This document shows positions 1 to 63,483 of a stretch of DNA of 64,000 nt, piece by piece. This DNA is from a virus. The position numbers and the translations under genes are program-made. The notes beneath the pieces were generated by a model. The model did no database searches. It saw only the letters and a list, made by a program, of their open reading frames with translations, and was not told the origin of the DNA. The DNA lies in the IMG/VR virus record IMGVR_UViG_3300037882_004127, positions 1 through 64,000 of that record. One strand, given 5' to 3'. Positions within the stretch are counted from its first letter, which is position 1, and every line of letters starts with the position of its first letter.

Positions 1-480
1 ATCGTTAACGATAACCAAGTAGATACGATTTGCATTGAGGATTTGAATATTCAAGGGATAATGAAAAATCATAAATTAGCTCGCGCAATGTCAGACGTTG
101 CAATTGGGCGGTTTTATGAAATTTTAAAATACAAGTGTGAATGGAAGGGGGTTAATCTGATTAAAATTGGCCGTTTTGAGGCGAGTTCAAAAACTTGCTC
201 CGTGGACGGTTATGTCAATCATGGTTTGACCCTCAAAGATCGCAATTGGGTTTGCCCAGTTTGTCAAACGAATCATGATCGCGACTTAAATGCCGCGATC
301 AATATCAAAAAATTTGGTTTACTTGGGTTGAAAAACTCAGATAAACCAAAACTACCGATGGAATGTCGGAAAGTTAAGCCTGTGGACCGGAGCGTTAGTT
401 CCGGGGTGAAGCAGGAAGCCCCTTCGCTTGTCGATGAGGTAGTTCACAGTGAATGCGAAATTTCGCCGATAAATCTTTAA
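1..480 (+). CDS. tnpB: TnpB-type RuvC nuclease, C-terminal part (copy 1)
   Basis: The frame is open from base 1, so the gene starts before the window. Visible are the RuvC-II motif (ICIEDLN), the conserved SSKTCS block and the RuvC-III motif DRDLNAAINI. TnpB proteins are RNA-guided DNA nucleases of IS200/IS605-type elements. The zinc ribbon is damaged: the first knuckle reads CSVDG instead of CxxCG, while the second CPVC pair remains. The last ten or so residues are encoded beyond the predicted right end of the element, so the stop codon lies in flanking DNA. Family is certain; activity is unknown. Confidence 0.88.
   Translation: MVNDNQVDTICIEDLNIQGIMKNHKLARAMSDVAIGRFYEILKYKCEWKGVNLIKIGRFEASSKTCSVDGYVNHGLTLKDRNWVCPVCQTNHDRDLNAAINIKKFGLLGLKNSDKPKLPMECRKVKPVDRSVSSGVKQEAPSLVDEVVHSECEISPINL
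387..447 (+). ncRNA. right end / putative omegaRNA 3' end of TnpB copy 1
   Basis: Inside the 3' end of tnpB there is a hairpin (CCGGA 387-391 with TCCGG 400-404) followed by the block GAAGCCCCTTCGCTT and a GAGGTAGTTCAC ending at 447. This is the usual look of an IS200/IS605 right end, which doubles as the 3' end of the guide RNA. Sequence from 448 on would be the guide. Copies 3 and 4 carry a related CGCTTG-centred hairpin. Confidence 0.6.
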
Positions 481-2743: not shown

Positions 2744-2852
2744 AACTATTTAAAAATGGTCCTCCCGGCCAGCGGAGCCTCTGGCATAAAAACCTTATAA
2801 AGATTTCATTTTTAGCTACTTTAAATCACAGGAGGAGAAGGATTTACAAAAA

Positions 2853-2929
2853 TGGTGGGAATACTCAGATTTAAACTGAGACTATTTCTTGTTAGAACCA
2901 AGATTGACTTTTCAATTGCCGATATTCCC
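2853..2929 (-). tRNA. tRNA-Arg (anticodon TCT), CCA encoded
   Basis: Read on the minus strand: a 7-bp acceptor (GGGAATA with TATTCCC), discriminator A and encoded CCA; a 3-bp D stem (GGC/GTC); an anticodon stem TCTTG/CAAGA with loop GTTCTAA, giving anticodon TCT; a 6-nt variable loop; and a T stem CTCAG/CTGAG with loop TTTAAAT. T-loop position 56 is T rather than C, and the D loop carries GA rather than GG, so the usual 19-56 G-C pair appears as A-T. It would read AGA codons, which are common in these genes. Confidence 0.8.
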
Positions 2930-2969
2930 AAAATAAATCTAAAAAGAACAAAATTAAATGAGCATATCT

Positions 2970-3285
2970 TTAATCCGTGACTCTGCCATTCCTGCACGGC
3001 TTCAAGTTGATATTTAGCTGAGAGCGACCCGCTCAATATCCCAAAATTTCAGCTAACCCCAATAATCATGGGCTATTTTACTTTTAAGGGAAAATTTGAA
3101 AGAACTCCTATATCATCCTAAATTTCACCTAACATGTCAACTCTTTTCTCAGAAAAACCAACCTCGCGGTGAGATAACCACTTTCTCACACATTGCATTC
3201 TTTGTCAGATCGTCTCTTTTATTAGCTTGCGCTAATGGGTGTTTTGGACTACGCGAGTGCTTTCTTGTTGCGAAACGAGGTTTAA
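2970..3285. other. non-coding stretch with several strong hairpins
   Basis: No convincing gene lies here. Visible stems are CCGTG 2975-2979 with CACGG 2995-2999; TTAGCTGA 3014-3021 with TCAGCTAA 3049-3056 enclosing GAGCG/CGCTC (3022-3034); GTGAGA/TCTCAC near 3170-3191; ATTAGC/GCTAAT with a TTGC loop near 3222-3237; and AACCTCG 3160-3166 with CGAGGTT 3276-3282 closing about 120 nt. It may be one or more structured RNAs beside the tRNA. The transcribed strand is not clear. Confidence 0.4.
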
Positions 3286-22377: not shown

Positions 22378-23541
22378 GTGCCCAACTTAACCTACAAGGC
22401 AGAATTGCTTTTCCAAAGTCAAGAGGATTTTGGGAAAATTCTTAATGTGTTAAAGGCTGAGCAGCAAGTATTTAACGAAGCGTCCAAAATCCATTATGGA
22501 GACGGTTCAAAACGAAAAAATAGCATTGTTGAGCTTCACGCTGGATTTTATAGCAAATTTAGGTTAGCTCATCCTGAAATTCCATCACAAATTGTTATTC
22601 GTGGGGAACAAGCATGCTTATCGGCTTACCGTTCAATTAAATCCAATAAACACGAAATTCATAAGGCAATAGAGAAGAAGAATTTAAGCATTAGGCTAGA
22701 TAAAAGAATTTATACTTATAAAGAAGACAAAATTAAATTAACCTCGTTAGACAAGCGTGTCACCGTAGATTTTAAGCGCTACCCAAAAATCGAAGAAATG
22801 CTAAAATCTTATGAATTTTGCGATCCACTTCTATTTGAACGAGACGGTAAAATCTGGATAGCTCTTACATTTAAAGTTCCCGCAAAACCAGAATCTATTG
22901 AAAAATTAGCCGTGGGCATAGATTTGGGTGTGAATCGAGTAGTTGCTACCTCTGAGGGTAAAATATTTCAGGATAAAAAATTTAACAAAACAAAAAGAAA
23001 ACTTCGATTTTTAAAGCGCCGACTCCGGTCAAAGGGGACAAAATCGGCAAGACGGCACTTAAAGAAGATCCGCCACAAAGAGGCAAATCGAAATAATAAT
23101 CAATCTCATCTATTAGCGAACACCATTATTAGCTCGACCAGCGCAAATGTTTTGGTTTTGGAAGATCTGACGGGTTTAAAAAATCCCAAGAGTAAGAAAA
23201 AGAAAATGAGTAAGTCTAATAATAATAAAATTGGGCAAGTCCCTTTTGCTAGACTTAGAGAAATTTTGACCTACAAGGCACCCATTTATGGGAAAACGGT
23301 TTTACTTATTGACCCAAAATTCACGAGTCAAATTGACTCAAGAACAGGGTTAAAGGATGGGTTAAGAAAAGGCAGTAGATATTACTGTTCGGACGGAGTG
23401 ATATTGGATGCAGATTTAAATGCGTCAATCAATATCACTAAACGTTCAAAACTCCCCGTTTCACTCGGTAGAAATATCGAGACTTACGGGCAGGCTGTTG
23501 TCACCCAGCCAATTGTATTTAAGTCGTTTAATTCTAAGTAA
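22378..23541 (+). CDS. tnpB: TnpB-type RuvC nuclease (copy 2)
   Basis: 387 residues with GTG start. RuvC I is VGIDLGVN (Asp near 182), RuvC II VLVLEDLTGLK (Glu near 262) and RuvC III DADLNASINI (Asp near 346), with the arginine/lysine-rich KRRLRSKGTKSARRH helix between. The TSQ block is followed by IDSRTG and YYCSDG, so three of the four zinc-ribbon cysteines are gone. The stop lies inside a hairpin. RNA-guided nicking or cleavage activity is expected for the family, not shown here. Confidence 0.88.
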   Translation: MPNLTYKAELLFQSQEDFGKILNVLKAEQQVFNEASKIHYGDGSKRKNSIVELHAGFYSKFRLAHPEIPSQIVIRGEQACLSAYRSIKSNKHEIHKAIEKKNLSIRLDKRIYTYKEDKIKLTSLDKRVTVDFKRYPKIEEMLKSYEFCDPLLFERDGKIWIALTFKVPAKPESIEKLAVGIDLGVNRVVATSEGKIFQDKKFNKTKRKLRFLKRRLRSKGTKSARRHLKKIRHKEANRNNNQSHLLANTIISSTSANVLVLEDLTGLKNPKSKKKKMSKSNNNKIGQVPFARLREILTYKAPIYGKTVLLIDPKFTSQIDSRTGLKDGLRKGSRYYCSDGVILDADLNASINITKRSKLPVSLGRNIETYGQAVVTQPIVFKSFNSK

Positions 23542-41662: not shown

Positions 41663-41760
41663 TTAAATGGTCTCCTTTAGGTTTAGGAAATATTCTCGCA
41701 TAGCTTTCCACTCAGGATTCCTGTAGCCCGGCTCAACCCAAATTTTGCAAAAAAGTTCAC
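41663..41760 (-). pseudogene. 3' part of a small gene split by TnpB element 3
   Basis: 98 nt on the left flank of the element. Its frame carries ELFCKIWVEPGYRNPEWKAM and ends ...LNLKETI. Joined to 37 nt on the right flank (43006-43042) it restores a single 44-residue frame with a GTG start. An ATG at 41779 inside the element edge could also express this half. Confidence 0.6.
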
Positions 41761-41810
41761 ACGGCGATATAAAGTTCATGAAATTAGTGTATTCATTGTT
41801 ACAAAACAAA

Positions 41811-42956
41811 ATGTCAGTCTTAACCTACAATGTCGAATTGATTCCGAAGAGTCAAGAAGATTTCTTAAAAATTGAGAAAATTCTTGATGCGAATCGCTTT
41901 GCGTGGAATAAAATATCTAAGGTTTATTACGGGCTAGGGAAAAACACGGATAGAAAAGATTTGCATAAACAAACTTATTTCCCAATCCGTAGAGAAAAAC
42001 CAGAAATTCCCGCACAAGTTATCATTCGTGCTCAAAATGACGTAAGGGCGGCATATAAATCAGTAGTTAGCAATAAGCACAAAATTGTTAAACCGATAGA
42101 AAAGAAGAAATTAAGCATGAGGCTGGATAAAAGGCTTTATAGGCTTAAGGAGGGCTTAATATTTCTGACCACTTTAGAAAAAAGATGTGAATTTACATTT
42201 AAAACATTTGAAAAATTTAACGAACTAAAAGCGAAATATGTTTTCGGCGACCCTTTAATTTTTATCCGTGGCGGGAAACTTTATGCGGCGATTTCATTTA
42301 AGATTCCAGAAATTCCAGTTAGTAGCACCCCATTGGCAGTTGGAATTGACCTAGGAATAAAAAATATCGCTGCAACATCCGATGGGAAAATCTATACAGA
42401 TAAAAAATATTTGAAAGAAAAACGGCAACTTAGATTTCTGAAAAGAAAATTAAGAGCACGCAAAACAAAATCCGCTCGAAAACATCTAAAGAAAATTCGG
42501 CGAAAAGAGGCTAATCGCACCAAGAATTTTGCTCATCATTTGGCTAACAAAATTTTAGATACAGAAGCAAATGTTATCGTTTTAGAAAAATTAAAAGGGA
42601 TTAAACAGAAAATCTCTAAAAAACGAGGAAAAGCGTTTAATAATAAATTTTCGCAAATACCAATTGCGATGTTAGCGACGATCATATCATATAAGGCACC
42701 CTTAAAGGGGAAAACGGTTCGTTTCGTGAATCCACAAAATACCAGTCAAATTGACCACAGAACGGGTCAAAAAGACGGAGTCCGCAAGGGTAATATCTAT
42801 CTCGGAAAAGATGGAATTTTACTTCATGCGGATATCAATGCTGCAATAAATATTGCAAAACGTTCTGAACTCCCAATACTAAGCGGAAACGCAAGTTATT
42901 GGCAAGCCGTTGTCAACCGGCTAATCGTTGGAAATAGTTTAAGCCGAAAGGTTTAA
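41811..42956 (+). CDS. tnpB: TnpB-type RuvC nuclease (copy 3)
   Basis: 381 residues from ATG 41811 (MSVLTYNVELIPKSQEDF), the start that aligns with copy 2; a longer frame from 41745 would cross the element's left edge. RuvC I VGIDLGIK (Asp near 180), RuvC II VIVLEKLKG (Glu near 259), RuvC III HADINAAINI (Asp near 341). The TSQIDHRTG and YLGKDG segments hold none of the four zinc-ribbon cysteines. Clear relative of copy 2, so both come from one family of elements. Confidence 0.88.
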   Translation: MSVLTYNVELIPKSQEDFLKIEKILDANRFAWNKISKVYYGLGKNTDRKDLHKQTYFPIRREKPEIPAQVIIRAQNDVRAAYKSVVSNKHKIVKPIEKKKLSMRLDKRLYRLKEGLIFLTTLEKRCEFTFKTFEKFNELKAKYVFGDPLIFIRGGKLYAAISFKIPEIPVSSTPLAVGIDLGIKNIAATSDGKIYTDKKYLKEKRQLRFLKRKLRARKTKSARKHLKKIRRKEANRTKNFAHHLANKILDTEANVIVLEKLKGIKQKISKKRGKAFNNKFSQIPIAMLATIISYKAPLKGKTVRFVNPQNTSQIDHRTGQKDGVRKGNIYLGKDGILLHADINAAINIAKRSELPILSGNASYWQAVVNRLIVGNSLSRKV

Positions 42957-49153: not shown

Positions 49154-49466
49154 CGCAAGCTTTTAATTCACTTGGCAAAGGCGATCCTCGGTCAATGTGA
49201 ATTTTAATTTGCCGACGAATATCGTCTTGTAAAAGTTGAATTTGTTTGGCAATCCGCCACATGGTTTGGTTTAGATAACATTCTTTTTCAAATTCGCGCA
49301 AAGCCTCATCAGTATTTGGCTGAAGGATCGCATTATAATGATACGATTCAAAAAGGCGGAGTGATTGAAAGTTAAAACCGGCAATTTTCTTAGGCTCGCC
49401 ATAAAAAACGAAATCGTATTTAATTTCGGTGAATTGCCAATCGGGGAAGTTTGCAGGGTTAATCAT
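49134..49466 (-). CDS. hypothetical protein
   Basis: 110 residues: strands with aromatic residues (WQFTEIKYDFVFYGEPKKIA), then a helical, basic C-terminal half. Overlaps the C5-methyltransferase by 8 nt and is therefore part of that unit. No family recognised. Confidence 0.5.
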   Translation of the reverse strand: MINPANFPDWQFTEIKYDFVFYGEPKKIAGFNFQSLRLFESYHYNAILQPNTDEALREFEKECYLNQTMWRIAKQIQLLQDDIRRQIKIHIDRGSPLPSELKACVDLKIV

Positions 49467-50376
49467 GTTGAATTAGATTTTTAAAAATATGAACTATTGT
49501 TGGCACGTTCCAGCCGTTACCAATGGCTTTATATCTATTTGTTTTTGCAATGCAGTCCGTATAATTATCATCAAGTCCCTGCAACCTTTCACACTCTAGC
49601 GGAGTAAGCGTTCTATAATGTTCACCGCAAACTAGTTTGCGTTTTGTCCCCGGTGATTGGGCGCATAGAGTTGGGTATTTTTCAACATAGTAATAATCTT
49701 CGGTAATATAACCATGAGGCAAACGGTATAGCAACATCTGGTTCACAGCTTTCGTTTTATAATGTTTCCACGGAACGGATTTATAAGACGCATTTAAGGA
49801 TAATGATTTTGATCTATCAACCTCCACCAATTCGGGATTTTCCAAAATATCCTTAAGAAAAATTCTCTTATCCTCGGGTTGAGTAACATTGGGGATGTTC
49901 GTCCAATATAAACGGTTTCTCTGTTGCGCGGAAACTAACGCAGAATTTATTTTAATTGGTTGAACGCCAAGAGCTTCCGAAATTACATCCTGATATTCCT
50001 TCTTCATCTTTACATTTTCAAGAAGAAATTTTATATTTGGATTTTTAACTTTAAGTGCGTTTAAAATATCAACAAAAACAAAAAACAATTTACTTCGTTC
50101 ATCATTAAAATTTAATTGTTTCCCACAAAAGCTGAATCCTTGACAGGGGCTCCCAGCTTGAATTAGATCTATTTTAGGCAAATCATCAATATTTATTTTT
50201 GTTACGTCGCCTATCTGAATTGTATCGGGCCAATTCTTTTGAGTAACTTTAATAGCATTTTTGTCAATTTCGCTCGCGTAATAATTATTAACTTTGATTC
50301 CAGCGCGGTCAAGAGCGATTCTCCCGCAAGAAATTCCATCGAAAAGTGAGAGCACGTTAAGTCCGTTGTTTTCCAT
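49459..50376 (-). CDS. DNA (cytosine-5) methyltransferase
   Basis: 305 residues with the C5 motifs in order: I LSLFDGISCGRIAL, IV AGSPCQGFSFCG (catalytic Cys), VI LLENVKM, VIII AQQRNRLYWTNI and X AIGNGWNVPTI. It methylates cytosine in a sequence that cannot be read from the protein. A PD-(D/E)XK protein gene lies 4 nt upstream, so the two could act together. Confidence 0.88.
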   Translation of the reverse strand: MENNGLNVLSLFDGISCGRIALDRAGIKVNNYYASEIDKNAIKVTQKNWPDTIQIGDVTKINIDDLPKIDLIQAGSPCQGFSFCGKQLNFNDERSKLFFVFVDILNALKVKNPNIKFLLENVKMKKEYQDVISEALGVQPIKINSALVSAQQRNRLYWTNIPNVTQPEDKRIFLKDILENPELVEVDRSKSLSLNASYKSVPWKHYKTKAVNQMLLYRLPHGYITEDYYYVEKYPTLCAQSPGTKRKLVCGEHYRTLTPLECERLQGLDDNYTDCIAKTNRYKAIGNGWNVPTIVHIFKNLIQHD

Positions 50377-51023: not shown

Positions 51024-52009
51024 GTGAAAACAAATCTGAAATTATTAACCTTCATAACGAGGGATTCTCTGTTGTCCAAATCGCCAGTAAAACAAAATAT
51101 AGCAAAAAAGATATATTTGAGACTATTGTAGAAGGCGGATTTGTCCCGCGCAAATTTGAACCAGATGAGAATATAAAGATTAAAATAATTAATGCTTTTC
51201 TAGAGAATAACTCTGTAAACAAAACATCCAAAATGTTTAACTTGTGTTTTCAAGCCACAAAAAGCATTTTAGTCAAAAGCGGCCTCAAAATTGACCCGGC
51301 GAAATATCATGTTATAGATGAATCTTTTTTCGAGACAATTGATTCGCACGAAAAGGCTTATTATATCGGGCTAATTATGTCTGACGGGTGTTTGCTCTGG
51401 AATAGAAGAAAAGATAAGGTGGGACAATTGCTTATTAGCTTAGTGGAAGCCGATAAATACATTCTCGAAAACTTAATTTCATTAACAAAAAGTTCAACAA
51501 AATTAAGAGTTCAAATTCACCGATGCAGGGATGGTTGCGTTCGTCAACCAATGAATGGTCTTTGTATCGCTTCGGAGGTTTTTGTTTCCCATCTGACTAA
51601 ATATGGACTTTTCCCAAATAAAAGCGTCAACCACCCTTTCTTTAAAAACATTCCAGAAGAGTTTTTATCCAGCGCTATTTTGGGCTACTTTGATGGCGAC
51701 GGAAGCGTTTCTATTTTAAGACAAAACACTCAACTATGTGCATCGTTCATTTCCTCAATTGAATTTTCAAAAGAACTTTACAAAACACTTTTAAGTAAAA
51801 ACATAAAGTGCTCTATAAGGGTAAGAAAAACCAAAAAGGGAACTGAGATGGGCGAAGTTCGACTAAAAGGCAATAACCAATGTCTTAAGTTGTATAGATA
51901 TATGTATTCCTCCAATATCCCTTCGTTGACGAGAAAGAAGCTAAAGTTTGAAACTATGATTGATAGAATCAAACTTGGGCTTACGAAAGATACCTCCCAC
52001 TATAGCTGA
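51020..52009 (+). CDS. LAGLIDADG homing endonuclease (cassette 2)
   Basis: 329 residues. N-terminal HTH-like part (GFSVVQIASKTKYSKKDIFE), then the two LAGLIDADG motifs AYYIGLIMSDGCLLW and LSSAILGYFDGDGSVSI about 115 residues apart, as in single-chain enzymes. Stands on the plus strand among minus-strand genes and overlaps the RecA-like gene's 3' end by 10 nt. Confidence 0.85.
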   Translation: MSENKSEIINLHNEGFSVVQIASKTKYSKKDIFETIVEGGFVPRKFEPDENIKIKIINAFLENNSVNKTSKMFNLCFQATKSILVKSGLKIDPAKYHVIDESFFETIDSHEKAYYIGLIMSDGCLLWNRRKDKVGQLLISLVEADKYILENLISLTKSSTKLRVQIHRCRDGCVRQPMNGLCIASEVFVSHLTKYGLFPNKSVNHPFFKNIPEEFLSSAILGYFDGDGSVSILRQNTQLCASFISSIEFSKELYKTLLSKNIKCSIRVRKTKKGTEMGEVRLKGNNQCLKLYRYMYSSNIPSLTRKKLKFETMIDRIKLGLTKDTSHYS

Positions 52010-56898: not shown

Positions 56899-58085
56899 TA
56901 TAATTTTACCATTTCTTCTTCAAAAATTGAAAAATCTGCAATATACTTTACTTCTTTTCCTATATTCGCGGCCTCTCGCACTAAATATCCGTCTTCGGAA
57001 AGTTCTCTAGTGGTATTATGTATCAAGCCTAAATCGTATTTGCCTTTAAAATATTCCAATAAAGATTTTGGGCTTTGCCATTTTTCTGTTTCGAACATTA
57101 AACCCAATACTTCTTCTCTGCATTTAAACTTTTTAACCCCTTTAAACTCTGGTAACTTATCAAACTTCTCCTTTTTTCTTTTCAAATAAATTGTCGCATC
57201 TTTGTAAAGAAATTTTTTAATCCAATTCATAGCCTCAAAACTGCAAAAATTTAAATACCCCATTCCGGGAGTGTTATGATCTTCAAAGTATCCCATTCTT
57301 ATTGGAAAACCTCTTCTGGCTAATTCACCATAAATAGCCCTAACAAACAATTTGGTCCCCAAAAAATTTACATTCCATTTCTCATACTTTCCTTGTTGCG
57401 ACATACAAATACATCCATCCCCATCAAAATAACCACGCAAAAAATGTGGCATCAAATCAAATGGAATTTTATCTACGGGAATTTTATTAAGAGTTAAGCT
57501 TTTCCTTGGCTCACATCCTAACTTAATCAAATCGCCTCGAATAATTTTGCTATTTATTCTTACTTTAGCGGTAGATTGTAATCTGACTACCTCTTTTGTT
57601 TTTGGGTCTCGAATTTTCTCTACTCGCTCTTCAAGAATATGTTCTGCCTCAACGCACTCTTTATAAAGGTTTAAATGATCTATCTCATCTCCTTTCAAAA
57701 GAATGTTTACTCCGCTATCGGTGATGCACCCATCCGCATAGATAAAACCGAGCCAATAGGCTTTTGCTTCGGTGTTAATTTTTTCAAAAAAATCAAAATT
57801 ACAATAATATTGTTTCCCTCCAGCGCAGCAAAAATGTTTGAGCAATTTATGAGTACGCAAAAATTTAATTGATTCTCTGGAAATTCTAAATGTATTTATC
57901 ATCCATAATGGACCCATCTGGTATCTTATGCATTTATATAAATAGCGAAATTCTTCTAAATTTAACTTATTCAACCCTTCGTTATTAATAAATTTGGGGT
58001 CTTTTCGCAAAGATAAATAAATTTGCTCAGCGGCATTGTCTCTGGCACTAATCTTATTTTTAAAATCCTTCGTTCGTATAATCAT
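56898..58085 (-). CDS. LAGLIDADG homing endonuclease
   Basis: 395 residues. Motifs AYWLGFIYADGCITDSG and FLRGYFDGDGCICMS lie about 130 residues apart, preceded by a helical HTH-like part and followed by a winged-helix-like C-terminus. It overlaps the nuclease gene downstream by one base and the upstream gene by 4 nt, so it is in the operon on the same strand, unlike the cassette at 51 kb. Confidence 0.85.
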   Translation of the reverse strand: MIIRTKDFKNKISARDNAAEQIYLSLRKDPKFINNEGLNKLNLEEFRYLYKCIRYQMGPLWMINTFRISRESIKFLRTHKLLKHFCCAGGKQYYCNFDFFEKINTEAKAYWLGFIYADGCITDSGVNILLKGDEIDHLNLYKECVEAEHILEERVEKIRDPKTKEVVRLQSTAKVRINSKIIRGDLIKLGCEPRKSLTLNKIPVDKIPFDLMPHFLRGYFDGDGCICMSQQGKYEKWNVNFLGTKLFVRAIYGELARRGFPIRMGYFEDHNTPGMGYLNFCSFEAMNWIKKFLYKDATIYLKRKKEKFDKLPEFKGVKKFKCREEVLGLMFETEKWQSPKSLLEYFKGKYDLGLIHNTTRELSEDGYLVREAANIGKEVKYIADFSIFEEEMVKL

Positions 58086-58971: not shown

Positions 58972-59193
58972 TCAATAACTTAAGGTGAATTGTTTGACCT
59001 TGGCTGTGAAAGCCCCATATTTTTCATGGTTGCGAAACATTTCTAATTTTTCAAATTCTGTATTCCCATATCCAGAGCAATAGTCTCTTTTAAATTTGGC
59101 GAACATCCAATCTCTAGCGGCTTTTTTATTTTCGAATATCGATTGATAGCCATGCCCGGACGGATCTTCGTATGATGCAACGTAAATTTTCAT
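58972..59193 (-). CDS. hypothetical protein
   Basis: 73 residues: strand, helix (ENKKAARDWMFAKFKRDYCS) and a strand at the end. No motif. Overlaps the YopX gene by 4 nt. Confidence 0.5.
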   Translation of the reverse strand: MKIYVASYEDPSGHGYQSIFENKKAARDWMFAKFKRDYCSGYGNTEFEKLEMFRNHEKYGAFTAKVKQFTLSY

Positions 59194-59654
59194 AGCTCAA
59201 AAATATTCCCCACAACCTCATATGCGTAATCATTCTTATGCAGCCAAGCGCTCGCCGCCCCGCTTTTCGCCCAATCCCCATTTAGCCAGACATATTTCAA
59301 AATGAAGGCGCAAAATTCCTCATCATATTTAACTTCAGCTCGCGCATAAATTATGTCGGGGCTTGGTAAGGGTTTTGTAACATCAACCTCATAAACATTC
59401 TCGCCAACTTTGGTCTTAGTAAAATTTAATGGGGAAACGTTTAGTATGTCACCTTCGTAAATTTCGCGCCCGTTTAGATCAGATAAACCCGTAAATTGTT
59501 GAATAATAATTTTGGGGAAATCTCCATCCGCCGAAATCAACCTATCCTCCCTCTGGTATCCCGCATTATGGTTAGACACATTAAACCAAGCAAATCCGTT
59601 CTCCTCCCACTCTTTCTTCACACGATTCCAGACGCGAAATTTAATGGTTCTCAT
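59190..59654 (-). CDS. YopX family protein
   Basis: 154 residues: IKFRVWNRVKKEWEE, IIQQFTGLSDLNGREIYEGD and YEVVGNIFEL. The longest YopX member of the window, with an insert before the C-terminal motif. Shares a one-base overlap with the SLOG gene. Confidence 0.8.
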   Translation of the reverse strand: MRTIKFRVWNRVKKEWEENGFAWFNVSNHNAGYQREDRLISADGDFPKIIIQQFTGLSDLNGREIYEGDILNVSPLNFTKTKVGENVYEVDVTKPLPSPDIIYARAEVKYDEEFCAFILKYVWLNGDWAKSGAASAWLHKNDYAYEVVGNIFEL

Positions 59655-60163
59655 TACAACTTTTTACAATATTTCCTAAGTTTTGTCAAGCCTGTTTTAG
59701 AGCCTAAATTGAACAACGGAATCCCTTTATCTTTACAGACCAAAATTCCGGTGCAAGATCCGCCAACCTCTTTGCCCTCGGGCGTCCAACAAACAGCCAC
59801 GGTGGAAGGAGTTTCGTTATCTGAACCCAAAATTAATGCTACGTTGCGAGCGTGGAAAATTCGATGATTCAATTTGAGTTGATCCCAATGACCAACATAT
59901 TTTGACGCCGCTTCCCAATTTTCGGGTGTATGTAAAATTCCATTGTAATGATTATTGTAGCCTTGCCACGGTAGATAAAGCTCAACTTTGGAATTGGCGA
60001 CTTTTTTGAACCCGTTGAGCCCAGCGTCATCTATTCCAATGGCTCCTCCAGTGCGTAAAACCCATCCTTTCTTGGCGAAAAATTCAGCGATTTGGCCAAT
60101 TTTGAGTAAGTCATCACCTGAAAATCCTTCGCGCGAACCGAAAATTGAAATATATTTAGGCAT
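59654..60163 (-). CDS. SLOG-superfamily (LOG/DprA-like Rossmann) protein
   Basis: 169 residues. FGSREGFSGDD at the start, VLRTGGAIGIDDAGL (GGAxGID-like) and VGGSCTGILVCKDKGIPLFN, the layout of small SLOG proteins in phages that bind nucleotides or NAD-derived ligands. Could be a nucleotide sensor or hydrolase; function not settled. The first minus-strand gene beside the plus-strand structured RNA region. Confidence 0.65.
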   Translation of the reverse strand: MPKYISIFGSREGFSGDDLLKIGQIAEFFAKKGWVLRTGGAIGIDDAGLNGFKKVANSKVELYLPWQGYNNHYNGILHTPENWEAASKYVGHWDQLKLNHRIFHARNVALILGSDNETPSTVAVCWTPEGKEVGGSCTGILVCKDKGIPLFNLGSKTGLTKLRKYCKKL

Positions 60164-60181
60164 TGTTAACTTTATAATGAA

Positions 60182-60209
60182 ATTATAAGGGTTTCGGAAG
60201 ATGAGTCAA
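60182..60209 (-). promoter_or_regulatory. promoter of the SLOG gene
   Basis: Minus strand TTGACT (60209-60204), 16-nt spacer, TATAAT (60187-60182), 18 nt before the ATG at 60163. Confidence 0.6.
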
Positions 60210-60254
60210 ACTAAATGATTGACCATTTGACCGAAATTCCCAATAATCTCATCA

Positions 60255-60461
60255 GTGGCTCTAAACCGATTTTCAATTCCTAAAAGGTTAACCCCCTCCC
60301 AAATCAAAAGTATTTGTGAAAAGTTTAACCTAACTGATACCCAGTTCAGAGAGGGGACGGTTGGCCGCAAGGTAAATTTTCAATTATGCGCCTACATTTG
60401 TATCCTCTTAGGCTATAAAGATTGGTATCCAAAATATTGGCCCAAAAGAATGAATAATTGA
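60255..60461 (+). CDS. possible small plus-strand protein
   Basis: 68 residues from GTG 60255 (MALNRFSIPKRLTPSQIKSI...). Balanced composition, helical, with FNLTDTQFREGTVGRKVNFQ that could be a small DNA-binding fold. Lies just before the structured RNA region. Not certain to be translated. Confidence 0.4.
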   Translation: MALNRFSIPKRLTPSQIKSICEKFNLTDTQFREGTVGRKVNFQLCAYICILLGYKDWYPKYWPKRMNN

Positions 60462-60468
60462 AAATAAT

Positions 60469-60498
60469 TTGATTTCCCGCATAAAATTAGTGTATACT
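60469..60498 (+). promoter_or_regulatory. promoter of the structured RNA candidate
   Basis: TTGATT 60469-60474, 18-nt spacer, TATACT 60493-60498; transcription would start near 60505. Confidence 0.55.
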
Positions 60499-60504
60499 TA
60501 TTTA

Positions 60505-61120
60505 AGGTCTAATAAAAGCGCGAACAAACGCTACAATTACGCCAAGCTATCGCACAGGTCCTACCACGACGCAATTCGTGCCTGTGAATAGACCACTTTT
60601 TATTCAGACATTATGAATAAATGGGCCGCGAGAGTGACGCGGGATAAAAAATCGTTGAGGTAATACCTTAACACACCAGTTAAATACCAAGCTAACCGCG
60701 TTTCTTCCTAACAAGGATAGAATAGAACGAGATTGTATCAAATTTGAATGGGGCTAATTACTGGAGCCTGTCTCGCAAGACTTAAAAGTAGTTCGATGGC
60801 GAAATTAAGTTGCGCTTCACGTTTGGGCAAATGCCGGTTAATCCCGGTAATCCCCGGTTTTCGTAAGAAGATTTCCGATAATAGAGCGTGTTTGGGTTAG
60901 CCGACCCAATGTTGTCACTTTGTCTTTTGGCTATACCGAACTGAGTTCCCAAAAACATCAAGCCTATTTACGGATTTTCCGTTTCTAGGCAGTGTTGTGT
61001 CTATGCGTAATAAATTACGTCAAGCTACCCGAAATAAGCCCCGGCCCCTAAAGTGGCCAAGCTTAAATACTTATGAAAAACCTCCGATCATTTCCGTAGG
61101 AAATAAAGGCGAAGCCTTTT
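60505..61120 (+). ncRNA. large structured RNA candidate (about 600 nt)
   Basis: Non-coding on both strands up to about 61000. Many perfect stems occur in order: GGTCTA 60506-60511 with TAGACC 60589-60594 closing a domain that holds AGCG/CGCT, CACAGG/CCTGTG and CACGA/TCGTG; TTTATTCA/TGAATAAA (60599-60621); CCGCG/CGCGG (60626-60642); GTTGAGGT/ACCTTAAC (60654-60672); TCCT/AGGA near 60706; TTGGGT/ACCCAA near 60891; ACGGA/TCCGT near 60970. A final AAAGGC-GAA-GCCTTTT (61105-61120) could be a terminator. Size and density recall the large phage RNAs (GOLLD/ROOL class), but no such family is identified. Confidence 0.55.
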
Positions 61121-61200
61121 CTCTGATTAACGGGGAAAATAAAAAACACCCAGAATTCAATCTAAGTGTTTACCTAACCAAGGAATTAAGAGCTATATGA
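60997..61200 (+). CDS. possible protein at the 3' end of the structured region
   Basis: 67 residues (GTG 60997 or ATG 61003), basic start and IISVGNKGEAFSLINGEN in the middle. It competes with the reading of this stretch as the 3' part of the RNA, since it contains the terminator-like hairpin at 61105-61120. Confidence 0.35.
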   Translation: MSMRNKLRQATRNKPRPLKWPSLNTYEKPPIISVGNKGEAFSLINGENKKHPEFNLSVYLTKELRAI

Positions 61201-61201
61201 T

Positions 61202-61393
61202 CTAGCACAATAAATTATACGCCCCAACCTTATATCCATAGCCCCATGCCAAACTAGCCGGAATTAAAAACACAACAGACAACCAATCCCGAGTATCATT
61301 TCTATGCGCGCACAATCCCGCCGCAAAGGCCAGCCAAACACACATAATCAGAGCTAGACTTTCTACGAATAAGCGAAAAGTAGATTTAATCAT
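61202..61393 (-). CDS. small membrane protein
   Basis: 63 residues with two hydrophobic segments (FVESLALIMCVWLAFAAGLC and the SVVFLIPASLAWGYG stretch). Overlaps the upstream gene by 8 nt. Role unknown. Confidence 0.55.
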   Translation of the reverse strand: MIKSTFRLFVESLALIMCVWLAFAAGLCAHRNDTRDWLSVVFLIPASLAWGYGYKVGAYNLLC

Positions 61394-61613
61394 TTATGCT
61401 CGTTAGTTTCCAAAATTTCGCCGCAATAAGCTCTTCCTGTTCTTCCTCGCTTAGCTCCCCGTTTCCCGCTCGTGCGGCATATGACCAAGCATCCGCATTC
61501 TCAATCAACTTCCTTAACCCATCGTTATTCCCGCACACACAGAATAAGTTAATCTTATGGAGAAAGTCCTCGTAAACCTTAATTTTCTCCTGATCTGTTG
61601 GGATTTTAATCAT
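61386..61613 (-). CDS. hypothetical protein
   Basis: 75 residues, helical, acidic, with NLFCVCGNND-like cysteines near the middle. No motif; packed between two overlapping genes. Confidence 0.5.
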   Translation of the reverse strand: MIKIPTDQEKIKVYEDFLHKINLFCVCGNNDGLRKLIENADAWSYAARAGNGELSEEEQEELIAAKFWKLTSIND

Positions 61614-61884
61614 TTTCGGCCACCTTTCTCATCAACTCGTTAAATTCTTCTCCATATCCGTTGATAATATATTTTGGGTTAGATGTTGGGTCTCGCCCTT
61701 CGTGAATGCAAGTAAAATCCTCAATAATATCATTTAATGGGACATCAAAATCAATTTGCGCGATTAGTTTACCATCTTTCTTGATCTCATGCCAGTATTC
61801 ACCTTTTTTATATCGGCAATCCCATCCAACCTTATAACCCAACGATTCAAAATATCTAATAACTTCTTGGTTTTGATGTGTCAT
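61606..61884 (-). CDS. hypothetical protein
   Basis: 92 residues from 61884 (MTHQNQEVIRYFESLGYKVG). WDCRYKKGEYWHEIKKDGKL gives a beta hairpin region, then an acidic helix. No family recognised. Confidence 0.5.
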   Translation of the reverse strand: MTHQNQEVIRYFESLGYKVGWDCRYKKGEYWHEIKKDGKLIAQIDFDVPLNDIIEDFTCIHEGRDPTSNPKYIINGYGEEFNELMRKVAEND

Positions 61885-61885
61885 A

Positions 61886-62053
61886 TTAAGCATCCCTAAG
61901 TTTCATTAACCGCGACCGTTCCTCAAGCAACTCGTTCAATCGTTTATACCATTTCGTTTTATCCTCGTTTGATCGGGCATCCATCCAACACCCGCGCGCC
62001 ATGGATAAAGTCTTGTCAAGTTCTTCAATTAATTTAACGTAATCTTTGTTCAT
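61886..62053 (-). CDS. small helical protein
   Basis: 55 residues (MNKDYVKLIEELDKTLSMAR ... LEERSRLMKL), helical. ATGA overlap with the upstream gene. No motif. Confidence 0.5.
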   Translation of the reverse strand: MNKDYVKLIEELDKTLSMARGCWMDARSNEDKTKWYKRLNELLEERSRLMKLRDA

Positions 62054-62241
62054 GCAATTTTTAATGTTACTTTATCCACAATAGGAATCTGTAGCCCAAT
62101 ACTCGCGGCGTCAAGTGATTTTCCGACACCAATTTTCTCCCAACCAGTTTCAACGTGACTTAATCGTTTGAAAATAACCTTTTTCCCGGAACCAAAAGAT
62201 AACAATCCGCGCCGTTCTTCCAAACTTACAAAAATCCAAAT
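62050..62241 (-). pseudogene. small gene with a frameshift next to TnpB copy 4
   Basis: The frame ending at 62050 (SLEERRGLLSFGSGKKVIFK ... LQIPIVDKVTLKIA) has no ATG; its first usable start is TTG 62223. An ATG at 62241 in another frame starts MSNYLDF, and one fewer base in the T5 run (minus strand) would join it in frame to VSLEERRG. So the gene of about 64 residues is probably broken by one base, or that base is an assembly error. Confidence 0.5.
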
Positions 62242-62247
62242 AATTAC

Positions 62248-63483
62248 TCATTTTGACTTTTTGTTGGACTTCTGCTTCATCAAGGAACTAATCGGATTCG
62301 CAAGCGAATCTAATGAACTTCCCTCTCCACAGACTTTAATTCCCGCAGAACTTGCGGTATTTTTGTTATGCATATCGTTTAGATAATAGTTTTTCAGGTT
62401 AATAGCGACGTTGAGATCGCGGTCGGTAGTTGTATTATCGTCATGTATAGTCGTTCTGTCCGCCAAAGTCAAGGAATTATTTATTTTTCCTGATTTGTGG
62501 TCCAGTTTTGAACTGGGATAGAAGCGATTCGCGATAATCACTGTCCGACCATACCATTTTGCCTTATATTCAATCATTCGACGAAACGCATAAAATGACG
62601 CATCGCCAATAGACTGAGCTAATTTATGATTTTTCATCATATTAGAAACAGATAAATCCTCTAAAACAATAACTTGGTTATCGTTTACTATTTTAGTGGT
62701 TGCTTTGTGTATGGCGTCTTTTCTAATATTTGAAATTCTATAATGTAATTTTGCTAATTTTTTCTTTGCTTTCTCTCTGTTTTTAGAACCTTTCTTCTTT
62801 TTGGATAATTGTCTTTGTTTGCGTTTTAGTTTCTTTAAGTTCTTTTTTAATGCCTTGGGATTTTCAAAAATTGTTCCGTCTGAGCAGGTGGCCAGAACCT
62901 TAATTCCCAAATCTATACCGACCGCTTCATTTGCGGGTGTGGGTGCGACCTTTACCACATCTTCAATCAGGCACGAGACAAACCACTTTCCCGCCCTACT
63001 ACTAACTGTTACCGATTTAATCTCAGCATCTAGCGGAATATAATCTGATTCTTTCAATTTTACTTCGCCAATTCTAGGCAATTTAATATGGTTTCTATCT
63101 GAGATGTAAATTGAACCATCTAATTTGAATGATTGTTTTTCGTTTTTCTTAGATTTGAACTTCGGAAAACCCTTTTTACCTTTAACTTTTTTCTTGCAAC
63201 GGGCGAAAAAGTTCTTAAATGCAATATCACAATTTATCAGGGCTGATTGCGGAGCAGATTTACTTGAATTATACATCCAACCAAGTTCGGATTGCTTTAA
63301 CTTATTCAACTCTCTATGTAACTCTATTGCATTTGGGATTTTCTCTTTTTTCTCAAACGCCTCCTTCTTCTTCGCTAACGCCCAATTATAAGCAAATCTC
63401 GCACAACCAGCATGTTGCGATAATAAAGTTCGTTGCTTATTATTAACGTCTAATTCTATTTTATAAGCACGAAGAAAGTTCAT
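62248..63483 (-). CDS. tnpB: TnpB-type RuvC nuclease (copy 4)
   Basis: 411 residues. RuvC I AVGIDLGIKV (Asp near 190), RuvC II VIVLEDLSVSN, RuvC III DRDLNVAINL, and the standard YNWALAKKKEAF N-terminal helix. SSKLDHKSG and TTIHDDN replace the zinc-ribbon CxxC pairs completely. The ATG follows the TGA of a NUMOD1 protein gene with no gap. Most similar in style to copy 1. Activity unknown. Confidence 0.88.
   Translation of the reverse strand: MNFLRAYKIELDVNNKQRTLLSQHAGCARFAYNWALAKKKEAFEKKEKIPNAIELHRELNKLKQSELGWMYNSSKSAPQSALINCDIAFKNFFARCKKKVKGKKGFPKFKSKKNEKQSFKLDGSIYISDRNHIKLPRIGEVKLKESDYIPLDAEIKSVTVSSRAGKWFVSCLIEDVVKVAPTPANEAVGIDLGIKVLATCSDGTIFENPKALKKNLKKLKRKQRQLSKKKKGSKNREKAKKKLAKLHYRISNIRKDAIHKATTKIVNDNQVIVLEDLSVSNMMKNHKLAQSIGDASFYAFRRMIEYKAKWYGRTVIIANRFYPSSKLDHKSGKINNSLTLADRTTIHDDNTTTDRDLNVAINLKNYYLNDMHNKNTASSAGIKVCGEGSSLDSLANPISSLMKQKSNKKSK
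62284..62309 (-). ncRNA. right end / putative omegaRNA 3' end of TnpB copy 4
   Basis: Inside the tnpB 3' end, minus strand GATTCGC pairs with GCGAATC around TT (62309-62294), followed by CGATTAGTTCC, a variant of the GAGGTAGTTCAC end of copy 1. The guide would continue from 62283 downwards. Confidence 0.5.

Follow-up and report, generated by a model that had tools for sequence, protein, structure and literature searches.

ROOL, GOLLD and similar large structured phage RNAs have no settled function; a homo-oligomeric RNA cage is a feature of ROOL and GOLLD. Among other structured RNAs, OLE RNA has partner proteins, and guide RNAs are expected at the 3′ ends of TnpB genes. ROOL and GOLLD are often, though not always, found near tRNAs, the universally conserved part of GOLLD is its 3′ region, and ROOL has no known protein partner (PMC12286853).

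The stretch analyzed here (hereafter the window) comprises bases 1–64,000 of a 77,859-bp IMG/VR virus record, and its genes include those for a PolIII-alpha polymerase, a DnaB-like helicase, LAGLIDADG proteins, and several TnpB proteins. A search of 50,697 phage records yielded no close cultured relative, the top DnaB matches being below 32% identity, and the relatives compared are two IMG/VR sequences: G001 (172 kb; DnaB 73%) and the contig G005 (191 kb; DnaB about 53%, polymerase 78%). With a probability of roughly 60%, we read the locus as a two-part plus-strand module, in which a small gene for a basic HTH-like protein (60255–60461) is followed by a structured, untranslated RNA of ~600 nt (about 60505–61130). 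Rfam has no match to the RNA, and the collections searched yielded two carriers only, so that it appears undescribed; it probably represents a very rare family of phage RNAs, of which two members are known and which is coupled to the small HTH-like protein gene. A ~600-nt candidate traveling with one small protein gene would offer a compact, testable handle on such RNAs.

Like ROOL, the candidate is large (about 600 nt), hairpin-rich, phage-encoded, and non-coding, but it has no Rfam match at E 10, lies in no tRNA island, and is coupled to a small protein gene. GOLLD is likewise a large phage RNA in which one half is conserved and the other variable; however, its conserved half is the 3′ one (PMC12286853), whereas that of the candidate is the 5′ one, and the candidate has neither an Rfam match nor a nearby tRNA. 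The Rfam search gave no match at the gathering score in the window and nothing relevant up to E 10 in 59000–62500 or in the G005 region, so that the candidate cannot be recognized as a ROOL, GOLLD, tmRNA, RNase P, or intron. Neither the window nor the other 13.9 kb of the record contains a tRNA gene by ARAGORN, and the same is true of the 20-kb G005 piece that carries the copy. An earlier note on this DNA had set aside tmRNA, RNase P, tRNA, and a group II intron domain V, in agreement with the lack of any Rfam or ARAGORN match to these or to group I/II introns; its suggestion of GOLLD/ROOL membership was not borne out, given the Rfam result, the missing tRNA genes, and a conserved part that is 5′ and not 3′.

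With OLE RNA, the candidate shares the large structured RNA and, as a working hypothesis, the dedicated protein partner; it differs by its lack of an Rfam match, its other gene context, its phage rather than bacterial chromosome, and a partner that is hypothetical in its case. TnpB omega/guide RNAs are also structured, and two TnpB 3′ ends in the same genome (genes 22378–23541 and 41745–42956) fold unusually well, with similar z of −3.9 and −2.8. Those RNAs, however, overlap the tnpB 3′ end, while the candidate lies clear of any tnpB and is conserved together with a different gene. A guide RNA of the nearby TnpB was rejected, as the nearest tnpB (62248–63483) is a minus-strand gene whose end lies over 1 kb from the candidate. 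Besides these three, the TnpB-like genes of the window (the first two on the plus strand) include a fragment at 43–480 (+), and no TnpA was found near any of the four.

Table 1 Features of the candidate module and its borders in the window.
Feature	Position	Strand	Evidence or remark
Promoter-like site of next minus-strand gene	60209–60182	−	11/12
Promoter-like TTGACC-17-AATAAT, 7 nt ahead of the small gene's GTG start	60219–60247	+	Consensus scan 10/12; region's count not above chance
Small gene, 68 aa, basic, predicted four-helix HTH-like protein	60255–60461	+	G005 homologue, codon positions, AlphaFold
Promoter-like TTGATT-18-TATACT, just ahead of the RNA 5′ domain	60469–60498	+	Consensus scan 9/12
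Conserved RNA 5′ domain	60504–60594	+	42 nt at 88% to G005; 97-nt profile match; pairs preserved
SL1, irregular hairpin GGU.UAAU...AGCG(loop)CGCU...AUUA.GCC	60506–60543	+	Predicted fold in both phages
Alternative closing helix, GGUCUA (60506–60511) with UAGACC (60589–60594)	60506–60594	+	Exclusive with SL1 (same first strand)
SL2, CACAGG/CCUGUG around CACGA/UCGUG	60553–60586	+	Pair comparison with G005
Hairpin TTATTCA/TGAATAA, directly after CACTTTT	60600–60620	+	Sequence; hairpin scan
Hairpin CCGCG/CGCGG	60626–60642	+	Hairpin scan
Weakly conserved stretch, including hairpin CCGG (60834–60837)/CCGG (60844–60847)	60769–60911	+	Colinear local alignment with G005
Two adjacent perfect hairpins, probable RNA 3′ end	61090–61119	+	Hairpin scan; terminator scan accepted none
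Terminator of adjoining minus-strand operon	61171–61144	−	11-bp stem and T-run

Joint conservation of the small gene and the 5′ domain

The candidate RNA stretch starts directly after the small gene (Table 1). The G005 homologue of the 68-residue product (66444–66713) is about 55% identical over 66 residues (E 2e-22), and the differences between the two genes are distributed 26/16/50 over first, second, and third codon positions, which indicates that selection acts on the small protein. The AlphaFold model has four helices in an HTH-like fold (pLDDT 73, moderate confidence). No match in family libraries or solved structures names the protein, the top hint being a weak match of the G005 homologue to a transcriptional-regulator PHROG (E 0.026). 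The earlier description of the stretch as gene-poor was accurate for 60462–61201, where comparison with G005 revealed no conserved ORF on either strand, but it overlooked this conserved plus-strand gene directly upstream; the neighboring genes on either side are minus-strand genes, as had been stated. What frames of at least 22 aa in 60462–61201 share with G005 is limited to short fragments of the conserved DNA block, and the frame 60997–61200, checked as a possible conserved protein, has no homologue, which leaves the RNA reading standing.

In G005, the homologue is followed 34 nt on by a 42-nt block that shares 88% identity with window 60503–60544 (E 3e-8), then by ~760 nt without ORFs of 70 aa, and the profile match between the two 5′ domains extends over 97 nt. 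The distance from the stop codon of the small gene to the domain is 34–41 nt in both phages. Because 50 of the 66 third codon positions of the adjoining gene differ between the phages, being nearly randomized, the conservation of the 42-nt block must reflect selection on its nucleotides. The block was rejected as a coding frame: the G005 frame stops inside the domain, and the substitutions have no third-position bias. At the level of sequence comparison, the small gene and the first ~90 nt of the RNA are conserved jointly, in the same order and spacing, in the two phages.

The module is at 66.4–67.5 kb in G005, while the G005 counterparts of the genes that flank it in the window are near 128–130 kb. 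It is absent from G001, where the syntenic place is other coding DNA and where the protein profile and the RNA models match nothing in the record. This different location, together with the absence from G001, suggests that gene and RNA move together and can be missing.

The spacing would also fit a cis-acting element, in which the 5′ domain alone matters as a 3′-UTR structure stabilizing, processing, or regulating the mRNA of the small gene, the ~500 bases beyond it being ORF-free filler. Such an element would account for a strong conservation that ends after about 97 nt, for the domain lying at this distance behind the stop codon in both phages, and for the weakness of the separate promoter of the RNA. 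We nevertheless regard it as rather unlikely, as the bases beyond the domain are clearly hairpin-rich (z about −3.4 in the window) and as long ORF-free DNA is unusual in such compact genomes, yet is present behind the domain in both phages. The main rivals of the module reading are this element and a DNA site to which the small protein would bind.

Pairing within the 5′ domain

Folded alone, the SL1 block gives a nearly identical hairpin in both phages (z −2.3 and −3.6), with one pair changed on both sides between the window and G005 and one changed to G-U. In SL2, two pairs are changed on both sides and none of the nine shared pairs is broken. Taken together, the 20 named pairs of SL1 and SL2 all form in both phages, 3 of them changed on both sides and 1 to G-U, but with two sequences only, 58 of 500 shuffles do as well; a second two-sequence control for covariation was not significant (126 of 500 shuffles). 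Hence the comparison of relatives that the earlier note had called for found pairs kept and compensatory changes, without passing the shuffle control. Covariation of the domain between the two phages is suggestive rather than conclusive, and what the alignment does demonstrate is a domain held by selection on nucleotides with its base pairs kept. RNAalifold on the shared 400–480 nt gave z between −2.9 and −4.4 against shuffled columns, in which dinucleotides are not preserved.

The earlier note had also described a closed multi-branch domain. Its closing helix is indeed present (GGUCCG with CGGACC in G005) and is part of the minimum-energy fold of both 5′ domains, but it is exclusive with SL1, and in G005 the closing strand overlaps one SL2 strand. 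Since GGUCUA can pair either inside SL1 or to close the whole domain, the predicted folds suggest that the 5′ domain may be bistable. The domain might be the functional recognition part of the RNA.

Downstream of the domain, an identical CACTTTT is followed at the same place in both phages by hairpins of unrelated sequence, which is GGTAAA/TTTACC in G005 (see Table 1 for the window). A long-range helix GCTAACC/GGTTAGC (60690/60895) was left uncounted, as the similar G005 pair is at non-corresponding positions.

Folding and possible transcription of the candidate RNA

The earlier note had counted at least eight perfect stems. We found 10 non-overlapping perfect hairpins of at least 5 bp in 60462–61125, against 5.7 ± 2.0 in dinucleotide shuffles (P 0.03; P 0.007 for their total base pairs), a count reached by 2 of 89 other 664-nt windows. 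The plus strand of the candidate folds with z −2.8 over 628 nt and with z −3.0 and −3.4 for its two 300-nt halves, where 60 random phage windows of 300 nt have a mean of 0.14 and an sd of 1.08. Two of 24 random 628-nt windows had z −2.9 or lower, and both overlap TnpB gene 3′ ends (41745–42956 and 43–480); the 300 nt around these ends give z −2.8 for the former and only −0.2 for the latter. The folding of the candidate is unusual but not unique.

In G005, the shared 476 nt fold with z −2.2 and contain 11 hairpins (6.3 ± 2.2 expected), individual 300-nt pieces of the region reaching only about −1. The weakly conserved stretch (Table 1) aligns to G005 with P 0.013 against shuffles, a significance lost with relaxed scoring; beyond it, nothing aligns, and the 3′ half has no convincing match. 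Hairpins thus go on downstream of the 5′ domain where the two sequences have diverged, and this remaining part is hairpin-rich but fast-evolving. An ordinary intergenic stretch that happens to fold could produce a hairpin excess with P 0.03, and 2 of 24 random windows fold equally well, but this explanation is very improbable overall and already refuted for the 5′ domain, which is conserved despite the nearly randomized third codon positions and behind the same gene at another genomic place. The proposal of a new large phage RNA gains from the significant folding and from the conserved 5′ domain with compensating changes, while the unaligned 3′ half and the two-sequence sample count against it.

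The minus strand folds nearly as well as the plus strand (z −2.6), so the strand cannot be chosen by folding energy alone. A near-perfect direct repeat, ATTACGYCAAGCTA, is present inside the candidate RNA at 60536–60549 and 61014–61027, and CAAGCTA occurs there three times, with only two further copies elsewhere on the plus strand of the window. Good folding of both strands, these repeats, and the HTH-like model of the small protein would all suit a DNA element, that is, an operator, origin, or recombination site bound by that protein and made of the conserved block and the hairpins. We consider such an element improbable: CAAGCTA is not kept in the G005 domain, and the block is a hairpin with unpaired conserved loops whose changes preserve pairs, G-U included.

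Returning to the structured RNA, its transcription was examined through promoter and terminator scans. The promoter that the earlier note had assigned to it exists as a site, but 6 such sites occur in the region against 3.6 ± 2.0 by chance, and G005 has a −10-like TAAAAT at the corresponding place without an accepted −35. Similarly, the hairpin described as terminator-like (AAAGGC-GAA-GCCTTT, 61105–61119) is present but was rejected as a terminator, and no plus-strand terminator in the candidate region passed the scan. Of the claimed ~600-nt plus-strand RNA with its own promoter, the hairpin excess and the folding were therefore retained, but neither a promoter better than chance nor a strand preference in the folding. 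The terminator of the adjoining minus-strand operon and the promoter-like site of the next minus-strand gene set the region apart from minus-strand transcription. The RNA could be transcribed on its own or as the downstream part of the small gene's mRNA. During infection, the protein and the RNA might work jointly, with the protein either bound to the RNA or acting as a regulator of its transcription. Tentatively, and with some doubt, the module could even stand for a new class, in which a large phage RNA and the small protein dedicated to it would move between phage genomes, the RNA combining a bistable, strongly conserved 5′ domain with a fast-evolving hairpin scaffold.

Further members and genomic surroundings

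Blastn searches of INPHARED phages and PLSDB plasmids with the region gave no real match. In IMG/VR pattern scans with three motifs, only G005 was real; the remaining matches lay in unrelated sequence, had neither the small gene nor the domain, and were attributed to chance, as was the single match from a pattern scan of the GTDB genomes, inside a Flavobacterium membrane-protein gene. Searching all retrieved loci and relatives with the covariance models R1 and R2 revealed no member beyond the two, and their top other match (L018:13952, 18.7 bits) was rejected, as it is antisense within a YopX-like coding gene.

Several other features of the record were noted. The window has a second ORF-poor, hairpin-rich stretch at 2744–3281 (plus-strand fold z about −2.4), without DNA similarity in G001 or G005, and the 664-nt window starting at 2657 equals the hairpin count of the candidate. 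A YopX-like protein is encoded at 59190–59654 (−; Pfam E 3e-16) and has relatives at several sites in G001 and G005. Just past the window, the ORF-poor bases 64001–64704 of the record (L013 1–704) have DNA similarity to window 57409–57788 and 51584–51623, in the two LAGLIDADG genes of the window, and are possibly, judging from this similarity, the remains of a third homing endonuclease gene. Finally, a DNA methyltransferase-like gene (49459–50376, −) has 87% identity with its G001 counterpart, a value that far exceeds those of the other genes of the genome and suggests a recent exchange.
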